NCBI GenBank assembly: GCA_015665275.1
Contig: JADFAL010000102.1
Coordinates: forward strand, 1-35,208
DNA length: 35,208 bases
Source: Flavobacteriales bacterium
GTDB lineage: Bacteria > Bacteroidota > Bacteroidia > Flavobacteriales_D > Crocinitomicaceae
Direction of reading: 5' to 3'
The position numbers and the translations under genes were made by a program. The notes under the pieces were generated by a model. The model made no database searches. It was given only the letters and a program-made list of their open reading frames with translations, and was not told the origin of the DNA. This document shows positions 21,439 through 35,208 of this stretch, piece after piece (the first letter of the stretch is position 1; each line of letters starts with the position of its first letter).

Positions 21439-23361
21439 ATGTCAGAGAAAATGCCGCCGTATTGCAATGATTATTTAAATCGTTCAAGGTTTGCGACAAG
21501 AGAGGTGAAAATAGGGAATGTGGGGGTTGGCGGATCCAATCCGGTTAGAATTCAGTCCATGACAACAACCGACACCATGGATACGGAGGCTTCCGTAGAG
21601 CAATCTATTCGAATGATTGACGCCGGTTGTGAGTTGGTTCGATTAACGGCTCCTAGTAAAAAAGACGCTGAAAACCTCTTAAATATTAAGAGTGCACTTG
21701 TGGAGAGGGGTTATGAAACACCTTTGGTTGCTGACATTCATTTCACACCGAATGCTGCAGAAATTGCTGCAAAAATTGTAGAAAAAGTTCGTGTCAACCC
21801 CGGGAATTACGCGGATAAAAAGCGCTTCGAGGAGATTGATTATACAAATGAAAGCTATCAGGCAGAGTTGGATCGTATTGAGAAAAAGTTCACACCGCTC
21901 GTGCTATTATGTAAAGAGGAGGGGACGGCCATGCGCATCGGCACCAATCACGGATCTCTTTCTGATCGAATTTTGAGCAGATACGGCGATACTCCTGAAG
22001 GCATGGTAGAATCTGCGATGGAGTTCTTGAATATCTGTAGAAAACACGATTTTCATGACATTGTTCTCTCCATGAAGGCAAGTAATACCCTAGTCATGGT
22101 GCAAGCGTATCGTCTTTTAATGGCAACAATGGCCAAACATGGGATGAATTACCCAATTCACCTCGGTGTTACTGAAGCCGGTGATGGAGAAGACGGCCGT
22201 ATTAAATCTGCGGTGGGCATTGGTGCATTGCTTGAAGATGGTATTGGCGATACTGTACGTGTTTCCTTAACCGAGGCTCCGGAAGCTGAAATACCTGTAG
22301 CGCAAAAACTTGTAGATAAGTTCAGCAAAGCGAACAATCTTACAATCGATTACAAAATAACAGACCTTCCATACAACCCGTACGCGTATCGAAGATACAA
22401 TACGAACAATGTAGGTAAAGTTGGATCGGGAAATGTGCCAGTTGTTATTGCCGATGTTAGCGAAATCAACGAAGTAAAACCCTCACATTTATTCGGGTAT
22501 GGCTATATGTATTCTGTACCTCTTGACAAGTGGAATTTAACCGACTCTGCAGCCGACTTTGTTTATATCGGAAACAAGGTTTTGAATTTCGAGGTTCCCG
22601 GAACCTTGCAAGTGCTTTGTGACTTGGAGATTTGGCAATCCGACTATCAAAGCCGAGATGGATTCTTTCCCATTATTGACGGAGATAGCATCGACAAAAT
22701 GGATTCAAATCAGGTCTTTTTCTTACGTCACAATGCTGTTAATAGTGATGTTACTTTCTTGGAAAATTATCCGAATTGCGTTGTTATTCTGGAAAGCGAA
22801 CATGCAAATAAAGCACAACTTTATCGGAACATCTATTTGAAATTTGCGGAAAACGGAGTTAAAAGCCCTGTTATTCTCTCAAGCCGACATGATTCTGAAG
22901 ACGTGGAAACCTTCCAACTTTGGACCTCTTCTGACCTTGGGGTAAGTCTTATTGATGGGTTTGGAGATGGTGTGTGGTTGCAAGGAAAAGTAAGCTCTCA
23001 AATTATTAATGCGACCAGTTTTGGAATTCTTCAGGCGACACGCACAAGAATCTCGAAAACGGAATACATCAGCTGTCCATCTTGTGGAAGAACTCTTTTC
23101 GATTTACAAGAAACGACCGCAAAAATTCGTGCTAAAACCTCTCATTTGAAAGGGGTGAAAATCGGTATTATGGGATGTATTGTAAACGGCCCTGGAGAGA
23201 TGGCTGATGCAGATTACGGATATGTGGGAACCGGCCCTGGAAAAATCCATTTATACAAGGAGAAAGAAGTCGTACGAAAAAATGTTCCCGAAGACGAGGC
23301 GGTTGATGCATTGATCGATCTTATTCGTGAACACGGTGATTGGTTGGAGCCCGTTTCTTAG
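21439..23361 (+). CDS. ispG: 4-hydroxy-3-methylbut-2-enyl-diphosphate synthase (long form)
   Basis: IspG (GcpE) reduces and opens methylerythritol cyclodiphosphate to HMBPP, the penultimate step of the MEP isoprenoid pathway. The N-terminal TIM barrel carries NPVRIQSMTTTDT, DAGCELVRLTAPS, PLVADIHFTP and VRVNPGNYADK. The C-terminal domain binds a [4Fe-4S] cluster through Cys546 and Cys549 (SCPSC) and Cys580 (MGC), with the catalytic Glu in NGPGEMADADYGYVG. The 640-residue length reflects the extra domain between the two parts, found in Bacteroidota, Chlamydiae and plants. The start at 21439 is chosen over an in-frame ATG at 21295 because the -7 box lies between them and the added residues look like untranslated sequence. 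It forms a single-gene unit. Confidence 0.96.
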   Translation: MSEKMPPYCNDYLNRSRFATREVKIGNVGVGGSNPVRIQSMTTTDTMDTEASVEQSIRMIDAGCELVRLTAPSKKDAENLLNIKSALVERGYETPLVADIHFTPNAAEIAAKIVEKVRVNPGNYADKKRFEEIDYTNESYQAELDRIEKKFTPLVLLCKEEGTAMRIGTNHGSLSDRILSRYGDTPEGMVESAMEFLNICRKHDFHDIVLSMKASNTLVMVQAYRLLMATMAKHGMNYPIHLGVTEAGDGEDGRIKSAVGIGALLEDGIGDTVRVSLTEAPEAEIPVAQKLVDKFSKANNLTIDYKITDLPYNPYAYRRYNTNNVGKVGSGNVPVVIADVSEINEVKPSHLFGYGYMYSVPLDKWNLTDSAADFVYIGNKVLNFEVPGTLQVLCDLEIWQSDYQSRDGFFPIIDGDSIDKMDSNQVFFLRHNAVNSDVTFLENYPNCVVILESEHANKAQLYRNIYLKFAENGVKSPVILSSRHDSEDVETFQLWTSSDLGVSLIDGFGDGVWLQGKVSSQIINATSFGILQATRTRISKTEYISCPSCGRTLFDLQETTAKIRAKTSHLKGVKIGIMGCIVNGPGEMADADYGYVGTGPGKIHLYKEKEVVRKNVPEDEAVDALIDLIREHGDWLEPVS

Positions 23362-23505: not shown

Positions 23506-23521
23506 CATTTCACGTGAAACA
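23506..23521. promoter_or_regulatory. parS-like site, 14/16 match
   Basis: CATTTCACGTGAAACA differs from the parS consensus TGTTTCACGTGAAACA only at the first two positions and keeps the full TTTCACGTGAAA core. It is non-coding, in the gap downstream of mnmG. Together with two sites upstream of mnmG it suggests a ParB-binding cluster. Confidence 0.7.
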
Positions 23522-23541
23522 TTGTAAACAACTGAATAACA

Positions 23542-23579
23542 GGTGTTTATTTTAAACTTTTTAGCTTTAAAAAAACACC
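23542..23579. repeat. AT-rich inverted repeat, 14-bp arms
   Basis: GGTGTTT-A-TTTTAAA (23542-23556) pairs with TTTAAAA-AAACACC (23566-23579) across a 9-base loop CTTTTTAGC; the only flaw is one unpaired A. It lacks the GC-rich stem of a standard terminator, but it lies 21 bases from a parS-like site. It could be a weak bidirectional terminator for the convergent genes or a structural/protein-binding site. Confidence 0.65.
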
Positions 23580-23715
23580 CGCTCTATTCAACGATCTCAC
23601 AAGCACCAAGGTGATTCTGTTTAAAAACAACCAAAACGTTCTTAAATCGCATTAAAATGCATTTCTCGTGTCGATATTAGGAAAATTTAGAGACGAAATA
23701 GCGACTCTTCACCAA

Positions 23716-25587
23716 CTAGCGGCCGAGGTACACCATAAGCACCGAAACATCACTTGGCGACACTCCGCTAATTCGTGATGCCTGACCAATAGTTGCAGGA
23801 CGAATTTCATTCAACTTTTCACGAGCTTCAGCACTAACACTTCCCAATTTAGAATAGTCAATATCAGTCGGAACTTTTACTTCTTCCAAACGATTCATCT
23901 TTTGAGCTACATCTTGCTCGCGTGAAATGTATCCATCATATTTCAATTGAATCTCTGTTTGCGAAACAATATCAGAATGTTCCGCTTGAAGATCCGCTGC
24001 AACCTTTTTCGAGTCCGTACTCATATCTAAGACATCTTCAATAAGAATGTTCGGGCGTGTAATTAATGAACTCAGTTTTACTTGTTGATTAATTGGAGAA
24101 CTTGATTTCATTTCAAGAATCTTATTAGCAACTGCTGGCGCCACCCCTTCTTTTCGAAGTGACTTCTTCAACTGCTCCGTTCCTTGCACCTTCATATTTA
24201 CACGCTCCATTGCTTCATCCGAAGCCAAACCAATAGCGTGGCCAATTGGAGTTAAACGAATATCTGCATTGTCCTGACGCAGGAGAATACGATACTCTGC
24301 CCTGCTCGTAAACATTCGATACGGCTCATCCGTTCCTTTGGTAATAAGGTCATCAATTAAAACACCTATATAAGCGTCACTTCTGGTTAGAATAAAATCT
24401 CCTTGCTCGTGAACTTTCCGGTGCGCATTAATTCCAGCCATCAATCCTTGACAGGCTGCTTCTTCATATCCTGTTGTTCCATTAATCTGCCCAGCAAAAT
24501 ACAGGTTTTCCACTCTTTTTGTCTCTAGTGTATGCTTCAACTGTGTTGGCGGGAAGTAATCGTACTCAATTGCATACCCCGGACGAAACATTTTGACGTT
24601 CTCAAATCCAGGAATCATTTGCATCGCGGCGTACTGAATTTCTTCCGGCAACGAAGTGCTGAATCCATTCACGTAGATTTCCACGGTATTCCATCCCTCC
24701 GGTTCCACAAAGATCTGATGGCGGTCACGGTCTGCAAATCGATTAATTTTATCCTCTATGCTGGGACAATATCTCGGACCCGTACTTTTTATTGCTCCGT
24801 TAAACATTGGCGAGCGATCAAACCCGGACCGAAGTAACTCGTGCGTTTCTGTATTTGTATAAGTAACATAACAAGAACGCTGTTTTTTCAGTGCAGTTGT
24901 ATTTGAATAACTAAACTTAGATGGGTTTTCGTCTCCGCACTGTTCTTCCATTTTAGTGTAATCCAACGACCGCCCATCTACTCGTGGTGGTGTTCCCGTC
25001 TTCATTCTTCCAGCTTCAAAACCAAGCTGGATTAACTCTTCCGTGATTCCCGTAGCAGCTCTTTCACCGGCACGACCTCCACCGAATTGTTTTTCTCCAA
25101 GGTGAATCAACCCGTTCAAAAAGGTTCCATTCGTCAGGACAACACTCTTTGCATTCACCTCAACGCCAATAGATGTTTTCACACCAACCACTTTATCTCC
25201 ATAAATCAAAAGACCAGTGCACATGTCCTGCCAGAAATCCACCTTTGGATTTCGCTCTAACAACAATCGCCATTCTTCTGCAAAACGCATTCGGTCGTTT
25301 TGTGTTCTTGGCGACCACATTGCTGGTCCTTTCGATCGGTTCAGCATTCGAAACTGAATCGCACTCAAATCCGAAACAACTCCTGAACCGCCACCCAGCG
25401 CATCAATTTCACGAACAATTTGTCCTTTCGCAACACCACCCATTGCTGGATTACAACTCATCTGAGCAATGGTGTTCATATTCATTGTGATCAACAACAC
25501 AGAACTCCCCAGCTTCGCAGCAGCGTTCGCAGCCTCACAACCTGCATGACCAGCACCCACTACTATCACATCATATTCATTCAACAT
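23716..25587 (-). CDS. mnmG: tRNA uridine-5-carboxymethylaminomethyl(34) synthesis enzyme MnmG (GidA)
   Basis: MnmG is the FAD-dependent partner of MnmE, inserting an aminomethyl-type group at C5 of wobble uridine with methylene-tetrahydrofolate and NADH. The 623-residue product has the FAD motif [12 protein letters not shown] (residues 9-20), [44 protein letters not shown] with [17 protein letters not shown] (the active-site region), and [20 protein letters not shown], plus the C-terminal helical MnmE- and tRNA-binding domain ([17 protein letters not shown]). It is the last gene of the DUF4175 - ATPase - ybeY - mnmG cluster. Six bases upstream of the ATG lies a perfect parS site, and beyond it a hairpin, so ParB binding may affect its transcription. 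Proximity of gidA to parS and the origin is well known in other bacteria. Confidence 0.97.
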
Positions 25588-25593
25588 AATTAA

Positions 25594-25609
25594 TGTTTCA
25601 CGTGAAACA
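25594..25609. promoter_or_regulatory. parS centromere site, perfect 16-bp palindrome
   Basis: TGTTTCACGTGAAACA is a perfect palindrome identical to the canonical ParB-binding site of chromosomal parABS systems (TGTTnCACGTGAAACA). It lies 6 bases upstream of the mnmG start codon. ParB would load here, spread as a CTP clamp and recruit SMC to segregate the origin region. The parA and parB genes are not in this window. Confidence 0.93.
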
Positions 25610-25631
25610 CATCTTGGCTTCGCCAGATGTG
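25608..25631 (-). repeat. Hairpin in the ybeY-mnmG spacer, abutting parS
   Basis: CACATC-T-TGGC (25608-25618) pairs with GCCA-GATGTG (25622-25631) around a 3-base loop: ten pairs with a one-base bulge. Its last two bases at the left overlap parS. Read on the minus strand the stem is followed by only three U residues, so it could be a weak ybeY terminator, an mRNA end-stabiliser or part of the mnmG leader. Confidence 0.7.
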
Positions 25632-25668
25632 CTACTACAAAACTACAACAGAAATACTTATTTGGGAA

Positions 25669-25684
25669 TGTTTCAGGTGAAACC
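25669..25684. promoter_or_regulatory. parS-like site, 14/16 match, overlapping ybeY stop
   Basis: TGTTTCAGGTGAAACC differs from the consensus at position 8 (C to G) and position 16 (A to C). It overlaps the last four codons of ybeY and lies 75 bases from the perfect site (start to start). The changed central base may weaken ParB binding. Confidence 0.5.
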
Positions 25685-26083
25685 TAGATACAAATCTTCC
25701 TTTTCACGCATCACTCTTTCCTCTTCACTCGATTTATCTTTATACCCAATAATATGAAGCACCCCATGCACCACAACCCGGTTTAGCTCGTTTTTCCAGT
25801 CTACTTGCAAATCACCAGCATTCTCCTTCACCCTATCTACACTGATTAACAAATCTCCAGAGATACGATCTCCCTCTCTATAATCAAAGGTTATGATGTC
25901 CGTATAATAATCATGGTTCAAATACTGCTTATTCGCTTCCAATATAAACGCGTCGGAGCAAAACACAATTCCTATTTCACCAAGTTCACATCCCTCTTTC
26001 TTACAAACATCGCTCAGCCATGAAACAAAAAATTCCGGATTTTCATGCAGAATTTCAATATCCTCGAATTGTATCGAAACCAT
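25673..26083 (-). CDS. ybeY: Endoribonuclease YbeY (16S rRNA maturation)
   Basis: YbeY is a single-strand RNase that matures the 3' end of 16S rRNA and takes part in ribosome quality control. The 136-residue product has [28 protein letters not shown] and the metal site [17 protein letters not shown]. His106 and His110 match the first two zinc ligands, but the third, usually His in GYDH, is Asp116. From memory the GYKDK variant is common in Bacteroidota, so this is probably a lineage form rather than a dead enzyme. The start codon shares one base with the stop of the upstream ATPase gene (TAATG), indicating coupling. mnmG follows 85 bases downstream. Confidence 0.93.
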
Positions 26084-26510: not shown

Positions 26511-29500
26511 TTAAAAGACACTATTGAAGTATTCATTTGCCCTGTCCTTATAATACTTACTATAAGCCGGATCTACAGCGCGTAATAATTCAATTTGCCT
26601 TAGTTTTTCCTTGTTATACTCGTCAAATCGAATTTGGTTACTATAATTTTCATTTTTCGGTGATTTCGATTCTCTTTTCACATCGAAACCTCTCTCCATC
26701 ATTGCCTTTTCGCTCTCCAGTAAACGCGTTAAAATTTCTCTTTGGCGTTTCACAGAGTTATTATCAAGTCTTTTGTTTATCACGTCCTTTTCCTGCTCCT
26801 CAAGTTCCTTGATTAACTCATTCAATTTGTTTCCCTGACCTGAACCGTCTTTGTTCAACTCCTTATGAAGTTGTTCCAAACGACGTCGAATCGCTCCTTG
26901 CTCAGCAGCCATTTTCGCCATTTGCTTGCTTCCCATACCAAGTTGGCCCATTCCACCTTTTCCTCCCTTTCCTGGTTTCTGTCCCGGTTTCTCACCTGGC
27001 TTACTTCCTCCTTCATTCTGGCCTTTCTTCATAGCGTCCAATTGCTTCTGAAGCAATTTCTTCATGGAATCAGAGCTCATTCCTTCTCCCGGTTTCGGCA
27101 TTCCTTTACCACCTGGCTTATTACAACTCCCACTCCCGGGCTTCTGGCTTCGCATTGCACTTTGCATCTGCTGCAGACTTTCATTTAACATCAATGCCAA
27201 GTTGTTATAACTCGTCATTACATACTGCTGATGTATTGTTAGATCACGTCTTCGTCGTTCGTCAATGTCTTCTAACGAAAGACCGTGGTTCGCCCTTATT
27301 TGATTCAACTCGTCGTCGATAAATTTAGCAATTTTCGGTTGACGCTTTGCTAGTTCGTATAGACTGTCGGACACAATTTTTGTGTCATCCACGATGCGTC
27401 TTTGTCTGCGAGAATGAGTTTTGAACGCCGGATCTGTATCCGCTACGCGCTCTAAATTGAACATTGTTTCTTCCTGATCAAAACTAAGGCTGACCAAGCT
27501 TTCCAAAATATTACGCAGCATGGTCATGTCTTCTTCCTGCTGTTCCTGATTTGACTCCTGCTGCATCTGGTCCATTTGCTCGGCCATCTGCTCCATCTTA
27601 TCTGAAGCACCTTGTTGACTTTCACCGGCCTTTCCAGACTTTCCTTTATCTAGGTTCTGTTGCGCATCGTTCAAGTCTTCTTGCACCTCCTCAGCATTTT
27701 GTTGCTGATCCCCCATATCCATTGGGCGGGATAGATCGTTATTAAGACTATCCATCTCTTTGATATCCTCTTTGATCTTTTCGAACTTCTCGTCTATTTC
27801 CTTTTGTGCCTCCTTCTGTTCCTCAGTTACATCCTTGGAGTCCTTGGTTTCTTCAGCTAGCTTTTCCTGCTCCTCTGCCAATTCTTTTAACTGCTCTTCA
27901 ATAGCGTCGATCTTCTCATCCACCTGCATTTTCTTGAGCATTTCCATGGTACGGTCCAACTGCTTGTTCATGTCTTCCGTATTCATCTCCAATTCCTCCA
28001 TGTTCTCCTCAAGCATTTCCTTGTTCTGCTCCTTCATGAGTTCCTCCAACTGATCTAAAAGATCGCGCAACTCATCATCCATGAGTTCCTCCAGAAGGTC
28101 TTCGATTGCCTCCTGCTTTTCCATCAACTCCTCATCCATTTCAGACAGCTGATTCTTCTCCTCCATACTATACTTCATCTCCTCTTGAAGGTTCTGAATA
28201 TCCTCAATCAAGGATTTATGATCTTCCTGAAGCTGGTCTACTTGGTTTTCTTGATTCCAATTTGAACGATTGGAATTCATCGTTTCTTTGCGCAACTTCT
28301 CAAGGTTTTTCTTGAATTCTGCAGCCTTGTCCACCACGTTTGAGAGATCCTTTTTTGCTTTTTCCTGTTCTTCTTCCCGCTTTTCATTCAATTCTTCTAG
28401 ATTGGGAAGTTTGTACACAAAAGATCTGCTGCTTGTCGCTTTACTACCGTTAACACCATCGTTATCATAGACTACAAATCGATATTCTATTCGATCGTTC
28501 AGTTTTACTTCTTCTCTACGGAAGTCTACCGCAAAATTGAATGGTGATTCCGTGCCGAGTACATTCCCAACATTCATTGATTCTTCTCTCGTTGCACCAT
28601 CTTCAGAAGTTATCGTGTACACAAAGCGAAGACCATTTAGGCCATAATCATCTCCAACAACTCCAGAGAAGTAACGTATTCCATCTTTAATAGAATCCTG
28701 TACCTCTTCAACTTCAATGCGTGGATACTCATCTTTGATTACATCAATCGACAGCGCCGTAGAGTCTAATTTTCCAGATGTTTTATTCTTTAGTACAATG
28801 CGAGCGTTCGCATCATTCAAAAAGCGCTTATTAACACTAAACCCCTGTTTATTAAACCTTTGCGATTTTTCATTGATCCAAAAATGGACTTCATCACTGT
28901 TCTTTGTTAGGATACTCCAGTTCACGATGGTGCCCTCTGGGATGATTAAATCACCCGCATTCTCAACCACTTCACTTTCCTTTCCTAAATACTTCGGATA
29001 GGTTAGCGTCGCTTGAAGTTTACCAATCGCCGTTTTCGCGATTACATCAATATGGTAGTCCTTACTGGAGTACTTCTCGTTATCATGAGATGCTACGAAC
29101 TGAAAGTCCATATCCTCGCGAACTTGCACCAATTTTCCTGCAAATCGATTCTTCGCTACCTTTTCCAAAAGGAAGGTTCCTTGCTTCGATTTAACATAAA
29201 CCTTCTTTGGAACAACAGCACCTGATAAGGATACTTCAAACATCACATCTTCCCCCTCCTCTACTGACTCCAAATCTGAAACTAACTTGTATTCAAATGG
29301 TGCCTTTTCTTTGAATTCCTTCGAGAAGTTTACCACGCGGTCTGTTCCTGAAACGAATATATCTGGATTGAATATTCCGAGACTAAACATGACTACAACG
29401 ATTGGCATTACCCAAACCGCATAGCGCTTGTTATCACTAAGGTTGATTGCTTCTGCAAAAGGAACCACATTAAGTTTCGAACTTCTTTGTTGGACACTTG

Positions 29501-29888
29501 CCTGAATCAATTCGTAATCACGTGAATTAGGGTCCATGCGATCGCTTAATTGCAATGTATTCAGCAATCGATCTGAAATCTTTGGGAAAAAGCGCCCAAT
29601 AATAATGGATGCCTGATACCTGTTAATCCGCTTACCAAAAGATTTCAATTTTAATAATGGAATAATCACGAAGCGAATCATGATCAACGCATTCAAGAAA
29701 ATGAAACCGAAGAACAAGCTTGCACGCACCACCGTATTAAAACGACCGACGTATTCAAGCGTAATTACTGTTAGGTACGTGAACAACAAAACGCCAACGA
29801 AAAGGATGACTCCTTTCACTATTTGGTTCTTGTAATACTTTCGAATGAAAGCATCAATTTGGTTTAATAAACGATCAAAACTACTCAT
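26511..29888 (-). CDS. DUF4175-type large membrane protein with coiled coil
   Basis: The 1125-residue protein has three N-terminal membrane helices (about 24-46, 53-80, 155-173) and a beta-rich region (about 180-490; for example FEYKLVSDLESVEEGEDVMF and TLTYPKYLGKESEVV). A long Glu/Lys/Gln-rich coiled coil follows (about 495-790, with many Met-Glu-Glu-Leu units) and a helical part (about 790-960). A Gly/Lys/Pro-rich low-complexity tract (KPGEKPGQKPGKGGKGGMGQ) and a short charged C-terminus ending YYKDRANEYFNSVF complete it. This layout fits DUF4175 proteins of Bacteroidota, whose function is not established. It probably sits in the inner membrane with a large soluble portion. It heads the operon with the RsbW-like ATPase, ybeY and mnmG and is divergent from gltX. 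Confidence 0.85.
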   Translation of the reverse strand: MSSFDRLLNQIDAFIRKYYKNQIVKGVILFVGVLLFTYLTVITLEYVGRFNTVVRASLFFGFIFLNALIMIRFVIIPLLKLKSFGKRINRYQASIIIGRFFPKISDRLLNTLQLSDRMDPNSRDYELIQASVQQRSSKLNVVPFAEAINLSDNKRYAVWVMPIVVVMFSLGIFNPDIFVSGTDRVVNFSKEFKEKAPFEYKLVSDLESVEEGEDVMFEVSLSGAVVPKKVYVKSKQGTFLLEKVAKNRFAGKLVQVREDMDFQFVASHDNEKYSSKDYHIDVIAKTAIGKLQATLTYPKYLGKESEVVENAGDLIIPEGTIVNWSILTKNSDEVHFWINEKSQRFNKQGFSVNKRFLNDANARIVLKNKTSGKLDSTALSIDVIKDEYPRIEVEEVQDSIKDGIRYFSGVVGDDYGLNGLRFVYTITSEDGATREESMNVGNVLGTESPFNFAVDFRREEVKLNDRIEYRFVVYDNDGVNGSKATSSRSFVYKLPNLEELNEKREEEQEKAKKDLSNVVDKAAEFKKNLEKLRKETMNSNRSNWNQENQVDQLQEDHKSLIEDIQNLQEEMKYSMEEKNQLSEMDEELMEKQEAIEDLLEELMDDELRDLLDQLEELMKEQNKEMLEENMEELEMNTEDMNKQLDRTMEMLKKMQVDEKIDAIEEQLKELAEEQEKLAEETKDSKDVTEEQKEAQKEIDEKFEKIKEDIKEMDSLNNDLSRPMDMGDQQQNAEEVQEDLNDAQQNLDKGKSGKAGESQQGASDKMEQMAEQMDQMQQESNQEQQEEDMTMLRNILESLVSLSFDQEETMFNLERVADTDPAFKTHSRRQRRIVDDTKIVSDSLYELAKRQPKIAKFIDDELNQIRANHGLSLEDIDERRRRDLTIHQQYVMTSYNNLALMLNESLQQMQSAMRSQKPGSGSCNKPGGKGMPKPGEGMSSDSMKKLLQKQLDAMKKGQNEGGSKPGEKPGQKPGKGGKGGMGQLGMGSKQMAKMAAEQGAIRRRLEQLHKELNKDGSGQGNKLNELIKELEEQEKDVINKRLDNNSVKRQREILTRLLESEKAMMERGFDVKRESKSPKNENYSNQIRFDEYNKEKLRQIELLRAVDPAYSKYYKDRANEYFNSVF

Positions 29889-31569: not shown

Positions 31570-31919
31570 AACATACCATCGAGGTCAATGGAATAAAGCT
31601 ATATGCTCACCACGGATGTCTTCCTGAAGAGGAGGCTATTGGCGGGCATTACATTGTTGATGTGAGCATAACCACGGACTTTTCTTCTGCAATGCACAGC
31701 GACGACCTCGGTGCTACGGTAGATTATGTCGATGTCAATCGAATTGTTGCCCGAGAAATGGCCATTCGATCTAAATTGATTGAACATGTAGGATACCGCA
31801 TTCATGAAGCTTTAAAAAAGGAAGTTTTCGGAATTCATAAAGCTCAAGTCAAAATAACCAAGCTAACCCCTCCTATTAACGGAGATGTGGATAATGTTGC
31901 TATTGTTATTGAGGGGTAA
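31566..31919 (+). CDS. folB: Dihydroneopterin aldolase
   Basis: FolB splits dihydroneopterin into hydroxymethyl-dihydropterin and glycolaldehyde in folate synthesis. The 117-residue length is typical. IKLYAHHGCLPEEEAIGGHY holds the conserved substrate-binding Glu region, ATVDYVDVNRIV the YxxL-like segment and KAQVKITKLTPPI the catalytic Lys near residue 100. The enzyme forms cytoplasmic octamers. It is translated from the same mRNA as gltX with a four-base overlap (ATGA). Confidence 0.93.
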   Translation: MKHTIEVNGIKLYAHHGCLPEEEAIGGHYIVDVSITTDFSSAMHSDDLGATVDYVDVNRIVAREMAIRSKLIEHVGYRIHEALKKEVFGIHKAQVKITKLTPPINGDVDNVAIVIEG

Positions 31920-33003: not shown

Positions 33004-33943
33004 TTACATCTGATGCCGTAAATCCACGGCCATCTTCTGTGGTTGCAGTAATAAAGTAAACAAACAATCCTCGGCCGTTATCCAACTGAACATACTCTCC
33101 GGATCTTTGATCACGTCCATCCCATATAAAGTCTGGATCTGTTGTTTTGTATACTTCTTCTCGACGGCTGTTGTACACAATAAACTCAAATGAATTAAAT
33201 GTGACATTACTACTTTTCATGAAGTAGTCGTCATTTCGACGGTCACCATTTGGTGTAAATATGTTCGGCATTACCACACGAATATCAGGTCGTGTTTCTG
33301 GTGATTCAACTAATTCAATTGGTTTGTTCACACGAATTGGTTCATCCTCTTTAGTAACATTCTCTTCTGGAAGAATTGGGAATGTGTTTTGAAAAATACT
33401 AGGATTCGCTTGAATCACAGGATCCGTAGTTGATACAATTGGATCTGGTTTCGGCGGATTATTTACCAATGCCGGATCTTCTATGTTAAGTCGTTGTGGA
33501 GTAACATCCGGATCGATATTTTGTGCATTGTATTGATCTGGGTCCACTGCCGGGTTAACAGGAACTACTGGAGACTCAATATTATTTTGTCCATTTTCAT
33601 TTGATGTGTTGTTTTCAACAACAAATGTTTTTGGATCCTGCTTTAATGTTTCATTTGCTTTCTCTTGAGAAGGAGAATCTAATGCAACAGCTGTTTCTTT
33701 TGTTTTCGGTTCAAGAGTTTCAGAATCGGTACTTGTGTAGAGAACTACAGCTGTAGTAACCACTGCAGCACCAGAAATACCAATAATTGCTTTGGTTAAT
33801 AAAGACATACCACCTGTTGCAGCAGTGCTAGAAGCGGCCCCCACTTGAGAAGCTAAGTTCGCCCATAACTCAGGGTTTACCTTTGCTTCAAAACTCCCCA
33901 ATTTCTCAGAGAACAAGTCCTTTATTTGGTCTTTATCGCTCAA
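32987..33943 (-). CDS. Membrane-anchored anti-sigma-like protein with gliding-motility (CHU_C) C-terminal domain
   Basis: The 318-residue protein has an N-terminal helical part (DLFSEKLGSFEAKVNPELW) like the cytoplasmic sigma-binding segment of Bacteroidota anti-sigma factors. One membrane helix follows (about 48-69), then a Pro/Asn/Thr-rich linker (about 75-220). The C-terminus (about 222-318) is a gliding-motility-associated domain: VVMPNIFTPNGDRRNDDYF, FEFIVYNSRREEVYKT, FIWDGRDQRSGEYV and GLFVYFITATTEDG. This domain normally serves as a type B T9SS sorting signal on secreted proteins with Sec signal peptides. Here it would hang in the periplasm from an inner-membrane anchor. The gene overlaps the ECF sigma gene by 11 bases, so the two are coupled and probably form a sigma/anti-sigma pair. 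No zinc-binding ZAS motif (HxxxCxxC) is present. Confidence 0.82.
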   Translation of the reverse strand: MSDKDQIKDLFSEKLGSFEAKVNPELWANLASQVGAASSTAATGGMSLLTKAIIGISGAAVVTTAVVLYTSTDSETLEPKTKETAVALDSPSQEKANETLKQDPKTFVVENNTSNENGQNNIESPVVPVNPAVDPDQYNAQNIDPDVTPQRLNIEDPALVNNPPKPDPIVSTTDPVIQANPSIFQNTFPILPEENVTKEDEPIRVNKPIELVESPETRPDIRVVMPNIFTPNGDRRNDDYFMKSSNVTFNSFEFIVYNSRREEVYKTTDPDFIWDGRDQRSGEYVQLDNGRGLFVYFITATTEDGRGFTASDVITIQQ

Positions 33944-34469
33944 TTCCTAATTCTTCTAATTTCACTTTTAAGTATGCCCTTGCACGGGAGTACTGACTCT
34001 TAGACGTATTTTCTGATATGTTTAGTTGCACGGCGATCTCTTTATGTGAATATCCTTCGATTGCAAACATGTTAAAAACAACTCTGTATCCATCCGGTAA
34101 ATCATTCACTATCTTCATGAGATCCTCCGCAGCTAAACCTTCCACAATGTGGTTGTTCAGTTCTAATTTGTAATCGACATCATCTACGTTTACATTGTCT
34201 TTAAACTTGACGTTTCGTCGTATTTCATCCAATGCCGTATTCACAATAATTCTTCGAATCCAACCTTCCAATGAGCCATTTCCTGAGTAATTGGAAAGCT
34301 TAGTGAATACTTTTACAAATCCATCTTGCAGTACATCCTCCGCTTGCTCGGTATTTTTCGCATAACGCATACAAACACCCAGCATCTTCGGAGCAAACTT
34401 TTCAAATAACGCACGCTGTGCTCTGGCATCGCCCTTCAAACACTTTTTCACCAAAGCCGATTCCTCCAT
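33933..34469 (-). CDS. ECF RNA polymerase sigma factor (sigma-70 family)
   Basis: The 178-residue product has region 2 (LFEKFAPKMLGVCMRYAKNTEQAEDVLQDGFVKVF, with the DVLQDGF core-binding signature and GWIRRI) and region 4 (LPDGYRVVFNMFAIEGYSHKEIAVQLNIS, then SQYSRARAYLKVKL, a helix-turn-helix for the -35 element), with no regions 1 or 3. It directs RNA polymerase to a special promoter set. The overlapping downstream gene is its likely anti-sigma factor. An ECF-type promoter motif (GCAACC-N16-GGTCTT) upstream suggests that it activates its own operon. Confidence 0.93.
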   Translation of the reverse strand: MEESALVKKCLKGDARAQRALFEKFAPKMLGVCMRYAKNTEQAEDVLQDGFVKVFTKLSNYSGNGSLEGWIRRIIVNTALDEIRRNVKFKDNVNVDDVDYKLELNNHIVEGLAAEDLMKIVNDLPDGYRVVFNMFAIEGYSHKEIAVQLNISENTSKSQYSRARAYLKVKLEELGIER

Positions 34470-34580: not shown

Positions 34581-35208
34581 ATGAAATATCAGGCGATCCT
34601 ATTACTCACCTTTGTCACAACATTTGGATTCGCGCAAGAAACGGCATTTCCCAAACTAAAAAAAGGGCGATGGGTTGCTGGATTGCGACTAAATGAGAAA
34701 GATGTTCTTCCTTTTGAAATGGAAGTGCAAAAAATCGATGATAGCTACGAATTTTATGTTGTGAATGGTGATGAAATGATTAAAATGCAATCACCTGAAT
34801 TAAAAAATGATAGCTTACACGTTCGCTTTCCCTACTTCAATTCCGTACTTGTATTCGCAGCTGACGGTAAGAAGGATATCAAAGGGTATTGGCAGAACTT
34901 CAATAAAAAAAATTATACCATTCCTTTTGCCGCTAAAAGATCAAAGAAGAATTCACGCTTCTCTGAAACGAAGAAAAAGGCAGATATGCTTACTCAAGTT
35001 GGCGGGAAATGGGAAGTTACTTTCGGAGAAGGGTCTGATTCAGAATATCCGGCAGTAGGAATTTTTAATCAGGAAGAAGAAGTAGTGAACGGAACCTTCC
35101 TAACAGAAACAGGCGATTATCGTTATTTGGCGGGAAATGTAACCGAAGATAGCCTCTTCCTTTCTTGTTTTGATGGATCACATGCCTTCTTATTTAAAGC
35201 AAAGAAAA
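34581..35208 (+). CDS. TlpA-family thiol-disulfide reductase, N-terminal part (3' end outside window)
   Basis: The frame opens at ATG 34581 and stays open for 209 codons to the window edge. The N-terminus is a signal peptide (MKYQAILLLTFVTTFGFAQ). The visible region has GRWVAGLRLNEKDVLPFEME, TQVGGKWEVTFGEG, and NGTFLTETGDYRYLAGNVTE with LFLSCFDGSHAFLFKAKK. I recognise the last segment from the N-terminal domain that precedes the thioredoxin fold in TlpA-like proteins of Bacteroidota. The CxxC active site would lie beyond the edge and was not seen. Expected location is the periplasm, perhaps lipid-anchored or soluble. It is divergent from the sigma gene with a 111-base spacer. Confidence 0.7.
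   Translation, partial: MKYQAILLLTFVTTFGFAQETAFPKLKKGRWVAGLRLNEKDVLPFEMEVQKIDDSYEFYVVNGDEMIKMQSPELKNDSLHVRFPYFNSVLVFAADGKKDIKGYWQNFNKKNYTIPFAAKRSKKNSRFSETKKKADMLTQVGGKWEVTFGEGSDSEYPAVGIFNQEEEVVNGTFLTETGDYRYLAGNVTEDSLFLSCFDGSHAFLFKAKK

Follow-up and report, generated by a model that had tools for sequence, protein, structure and literature searches.

A parS cluster surrounds mnmG

The locus described here is an ordinary, well-supported chromosomal parS beside a likely replication origin, and the interesting part of it is the wide and tight docking of parS at mnmG. Within the window (the whole stretch of DNA analysed, 35,208 nucleotides), three 16-bp sites lie around this gene, and very probably form an origin-proximal, chromosomal parS cluster of a ParABS system, to which ParB is predicted to bind. 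The first-pass annotation had proposed a main ParB-loading locus near oriC, a reading that gains support from the conservation of the sites at mnmG, from the skew of related chromosomes and from the presence of parAB in the genome.

The mnmG gene (gidA; 23716..25587, minus strand, 623 aa) encodes a tRNA uridine-modification enzyme (Pfam GIDA, 1.9e-163; TIGR00136). The perfect site, TGTTTCACGTGAAACA, occupies 25594..25609 on the mnmG strand with 0 mismatches, leaving 6 bp between its end and the start codon of the gene. A second site, TGTTTCAGGTGAAACC (25669..25684, plus strand), lies 59 bp upstream of the perfect one in the mnmG direction, matches at 14 of 16 positions (2 mismatches) and overlaps the stop codon of ybeY, the endoribonuclease gene upstream of mnmG (25673..26083, minus strand, 136 aa; Pfam YbeY, 1e-26). 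The third, CATTTCACGTGAAACA (23506..23521, plus strand; again 14/16, 2 mismatches), is placed 194 bp downstream of mnmG, between it and the convergent ispG (GcpE; 21439..23361, plus strand; Pfam GcpE, 9.1e-126; context only), and keeps the core TTTCACGTGAAA unbroken. All three are the same 16-bp palindrome or a near variant of it, the chromosomal consensus reportedly described for ParABS systems by Livny et al. in 2007; their sequences suggest one perfect site, one that has probably decayed and one that is atypical.

Scanning the window at up to 3 mismatches revealed no places other than these three, a threshold at which 1 of 100 shuffles of the window also gave three matches. Under a first-order Markov model, 0.045 sites at up to 2 mismatches are expected per window (200 simulations, maximum 1), and none of the 200 simulated windows held an exact or one-mismatch parS. 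Three sites within 2 mismatches, one of them exact, in 2.2 kb is far beyond chance. The first-pass annotation had located the canonical palindrome at 25594–25609, where we find it without mismatch, and had correctly assigned 14 of 16 matching bases to each outer site; its description of these as near-perfect was overstated, given the rare or unseen variants that they carry (see below). Its arithmetic (1129 of 4^16 16-mers within two mismatches, that is 1 + 48 + 1080) is right and its conclusion of non-random clustering stands, while its expectation of 0.01 sites, which assumes uniform base composition, is too low against the Markov value.

parS is conserved at mnmG in relatives and across the phylum

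Conservation of the sites at mnmG in related genomes had been suggested as a check, and it is borne out. We took the 80 best named mnmG loci, which by their labels come from Fluviicola, Brumimicrobium, other Crocinitomicaceae and, in a few cases, more distant Bacteroidota. These labels are a rough guide, as many of the loci belong to MAGs and unrelated genera are named for some. A parS at up to 2 mismatches lies less than 1 kb from mnmG in 78 of the 80 loci; at L112 and L114 none was found within this threshold. Sites near mnmG number 182, compared with 7 in 722 kb of flank, and parS has 189 matches in the 1.03 Mb of these loci, where 40 palindromes made by shuffling its bases averaged 0.4 (maximum 3).

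The placement of these sites is tight. In 70 of the 80 loci a start-proximal parS lies no more than 20 bp before the ATG, with a gap of 6–9 bp in 61 of those 70, and in 70 of 80 there is a parS further upstream; in 29 of 80 a parS coincides with the mnmG stop or follows it closely, and in 18 of 80 one overlaps the stop codon. A second site containing the ybeY stop, as seen in the window, does not hold as a general rule (6/80 loci).

Such placement invites the idea that the palindrome serves as an operator through which a transcription factor regulates mnmG or ybeY, and not as a centromere, since a protein bound 6–9 bp before the start codon would affect expression. We consider this very unlikely: the sequence is the parS consensus, sites recur after the mnmG stop, and the locus sits at the skew origin in three genomes with dnaA elsewhere (described below). 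The copy number of the palindrome argues the same way. In whole-genome searches of 80 relatives, parS at up to 1 mismatch was present in 61 (a reversed control in 5 of 80), relatives with matches hold 1–4 sites per genome, and 72 of the 75 sites listed (37 relatives) fall within 1 kb of mnmG. Among the 19 relatives without a site at this threshold, mnmG is missing or partial in 7, and two others (G066 and G056) have mnmG sites at 2 mismatches.

A different proposal adds to the parS reading and is not its opposite, namely that ParB bound at the mnmG start represses the gene or sets the timing of its expression, so that tRNA modification would be coupled to segregation. The frequency of start-proximal sites and their narrow range of gaps speak for such a role, but the placement may just reflect free non-coding room, and 8 of the 78 loci with a parS have none at the start codon; we hold this additional function to be unlikely.

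The association recurs in many other Bacteroidota. Exact TGTTYCACGTGRAACA occurs in 66 of 90 genomes drawn from the phylum and is absent from 24 (reversed control, 1/90), with 70 of the 75 sites listed (45 phylum genomes) within 1 kb of mnmG. Of these 45, 42 have a parS near mnmG, on both sides of the gene in 15, and in the other three (G142, G150 and G104) the sole site among those listed is away from it.

Base-level variation of the sites

We next compared the window sites with the 182 sites of the relatives, all of which were selected at up to 2 mismatches from the consensus, such that more divergent sites may have been missed. Positions 2–4, 6, 7, 9, 11, 13 and 14 are invariant in this set, and a single site departs from the consensus at position 10; the inner substitutions seen most often are T to C at position 5 and A to G at position 12. 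Variation at these two positions bears on whether the palindrome might act as an mRNA hairpin controlling mnmG translation, for which the location of an inverted repeat within the mnmG leader would be suitable. Symmetry is not kept: position 5 or 12 departs from the consensus in 81 sites, of which 73 have the change on one side only and 8 on both, so pairing would be broken without compensation, and sites are also found downstream of mnmG. We therefore regard a hairpin as the least credible of the alternatives, with next to no likelihood of being correct.

In the 70 start-proximal sites (L037–L116), the position-5 T-to-C change occurs alone in 34 and its mirror change at position 12 alone in 1, an asymmetry which indicates that the imperfect half of a start-proximal parS faces a fixed direction.

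Judged against this set, and read in the mnmG direction, the outer sites of the window are unusual. The 25669 site has C at position 9, seen in 0 of the 182 relatives' sites, and G at position 1, seen in 4; it aligns with a site at the ybeY/mnmG junction of the close relative G020 (MnmG 94% identical), from which one central base differs. At position 15 the 23506 site carries T, shared with 1 of 182 (at L041, where the site is likewise downstream of mnmG), and at position 16 it carries G, shared with 7. The outer sites are thus atypical in sequence, 25669 above all, and we treat both as weak; for this reason the window may hold one strong parS.

In the Noc-binding site, ATTTCCCGGGAAAT, positions 7 and 10 of the palindrome are C and G. 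The three window sites instead carry A and T there, and the genome has a single ParB-family match with no additional Noc paralogue, so the locus does not fit a Noc-binding site.

ParABS machinery in the genome

The genome to which the window belongs (G000) is a draft of 3.64 Mb in 115 contigs, 96% complete. It contains four places within 2 mismatches of parS, three of them at the mnmG locus, compared with one for a reversed-pattern control. The fourth, GGTTTCGCGTGAAACA at C32:12649 (between a frame ending at 1462 and a frame possibly starting at 1509 of L002), is single, and because the reversed control also yields one place we take it as a chance match. Sites of equal quality spread all over the genome, which the first-pass annotation had named as evidence against its reading, are therefore not what we see (3 of 4 lie here). 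The same holds for the absence of parB: one ParB exceeds the family cut-off, a protein of 307 aa on contig C34 with ParB_N, HTH_ParB and ParB_C domains (N-terminal, helix-turn-helix and C-terminal) that matches solved ParB/Noc/Spo0J chains, and ParA is encoded upstream of it, giving a cognate pair. Three separate contigs carry dnaA (C15), parAB (C34) and the parS/origin locus (C39/C7).

ParB loading, sliding and segregation are known for the ParABS family, and by analogy we infer that they take place at the window sites. ParB made from the parAB operon would have its main loading point at the perfect site before mnmG; loading at the two atypical neighbors would be weaker or would not occur. 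As a CTP clamp, the loaded protein would then slide along the DNA, and the resulting nucleoprotein complex would be moved by ParA such that the origin region, marked by the parS sites, is segregated first after replication.

We make no claim that these sites load Smc, since no protein of the genome exceeded the cut-off of the SMC_prok_B profile (best match 24 bits over 43 positions). The two Bacteroidetes among the OMM12 strains studied by Hi-C are reported to have no known condensin (PMC10197239).

GC skew places the locus beside the origin in relatives

The first-pass annotation had also pointed to GC skew as a means of placing the locus relative to oriC. Gene orientation swamped the per-gene skew of the window alone, from which no origin could be read, and longer stretches of sequence were needed. 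We took skew at fourfold degenerate codon positions, treating each gene strand apart. In G037 (one contig, 4.37 Mb), the minus-to-plus switch falls at 2.73–2.75 Mb and the opposite switch half a chromosome away, at 0.51–0.55 Mb; mnmG lies with its parS at 2.72 Mb, dnaA is at 0.00 and parB at 0.81. In G050 (single contig, 3.98 Mb), the switch lies between 3.81 and 0.01 Mb, with mnmG at 0.016, dnaA at 0.46 and parB at 2.88. For G066 (single contig), first coarse tiles gave 3.09–3.31 Mb and the best fit after five added tiles is 3.61–3.63 Mb, with mnmG at 3.64; dnaA (1.98 Mb) and parB (1.97 Mb) are 0.2–0.4 Mb from the terminus switch. The same-genus contig G016:C158 has its skew break at 268–270 kb and mnmG at 288 kb, whereas the profile of G020:C3 is weak (single-break fit at 187 kb versus mnmG at 141 kb). 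All three single-contig relatives have the switch next to mnmG, and in G016:C158 about 20 kb at most separates the two; the fits in these four genomes place parS close to the origin. Across the single-contig genomes sampled, the distance between dnaA and the skew origin is about 0.45–1.65 Mb.

Our own genome offers a shorter view: over the 134.8 kb of the joined contigs, a clear replication component of the skew is confined to 24–96 kb. This component amounts to +0.02 and −0.04 at 0–24 kb, −0.21 at 24–36 kb, +0.08 to +0.17 at 36–96 kb and about zero beyond 96 kb. The best break lies at 36–41.6 kb, a flat optimum for which 34–35 kb is just 0.6 log units worse.

A candidate oriC beside rpiB

The last 127 bp of the window (35082..35208) are identical to the start of contig C7, a join found by searching our own genome with the corresponding stretch of G020. 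On C7, rpiB is separated from a sensor histidine kinase gene by a gap (~1175–1851, 677 bp) that is 70% A+T, against 58% in the window, and contains two exact DnaA boxes, TTATCCACA, at C7 1496 and 1551, 55 bp apart. In carried-on window coordinates these correspond to 36577 and 36632, 11 kb from the perfect parS; a third exact box is at 31886 in the window. G016 (271.9–272.3 kb) and G020 (129.8–130.2 kb) each have four TTWTNCACA boxes between rpiB and the sensor histidine kinase gene, and we propose the rpiB/kinase gap with its boxes as a candidate for the working oriC.

In G016, G037, G050 and G066 the skew switch falls at rpiB or next to it, and in all 50 relatives with both genes on one contig (66 with both genes were counted) rpiB lies less than 40 kb from mnmG, at a median of 10 kb. 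The precise oriC remains a candidate, because the kinase relative is not a direct neighbor of rpiB in G037 and G066 and because no exact DnaA boxes were found near rpiB in G037, G050 or G066 (nor any DnaA-box cluster near rpiB in G037). The first-pass annotation had stated that neither parAB nor oriC is present in the window; parAB is indeed absent, and oriC is literally outside, but the candidate lies some 1.4 kb past the right end, and oriC is probably closer than had been supposed.

In the 50 relatives (G001–G079, both genes on one contig), rpiB is upstream of mnmG in 32 and downstream in 18, which implies rearrangements of a block whose genes have nonetheless stayed close to each other.

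Comparison with known systems

The origin cluster gidAB-parAB of Bacillus and Pseudomonas keeps mnmG, parS and the origin close together. That proximity is shared by our locus, but its genome carries parAB and dnaA on other contigs. A similar comparison can be made with the chromosomal parS of ParABS systems: the window has the same 16-bp palindrome in few copies, as an origin-proximal cluster, with ParA and ParB in the genome, and differs in that the sites are packed around the ends of mnmG and that parAB and dnaA, separate here, are far from the sites in single-contig relatives.

Within the phylum, a parS cluster at an origin away from dnaA is to be expected from two published accounts. A Hi-C study of the twelve OMM12 strains, Bacteroides caecimuris and Muribaculum intestinale included, describes parS clusters that mark the skew origin and origins not always coincident with dnaA (PMC10197239); the evidence there is Hi-C and here it is sequence, and the accessible part of that study mentions no link with mnmG. 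In Prevotella intermedia OMA14, oriC is placed at the skew transition, away from dnaA, an arrangement that its authors call common in Bacteroidetes (PMC4755523); parS, gidA and mnmG have 0 occurrences in the text of that paper. We found no report of a parS–mnmG link in Bacteroidota in the open-licence literature, and one may be published elsewhere.

The mnmG neighborhood as an origin marker

The presence of parS beside mnmG (with rpiB nearby in the same-order relatives examined) provides a simple marker of the origin for Bacteroidota contigs and MAGs. As such a marker dnaA misleads, being off by the distances given above in three single-contig genomes and, in one of them, close to the terminus. 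The locus also points to the mnmG neighborhood as the part of the chromosome where the centromere stays, parAB and dnaA lying elsewhere. A broader conjecture, which we think improbable as a whole, is that across Bacteroidota the centromere is tied to mnmG, with parS in the start-codon leader and often at the stop, the mnmG–parS–origin–rpiB block kept together apart from dnaA and parAB, and ParB loading perhaps also tuning mnmG so as to link tRNA modification to segregation.

Other genes of the window also recur in relatives. A sigma-70 family gene of ECF type (33933..34469, minus strand; Pfam Sigma70_r2, Sigma70_r4_2, Sigma70_ECF) serves as an anchor of synteny in G020 and G016, where it lies between mnmG and the oriC candidate, and has a homologue near the skew switch in G037. 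The minus-strand gene at 26511–29888 encodes a 1125-aa protein with a weak DUF4175 match as its sole domain match; it is upstream of a small kinase-like ATPase gene and ybeY, and homologues stand in the same order in G020, G016 and G037.
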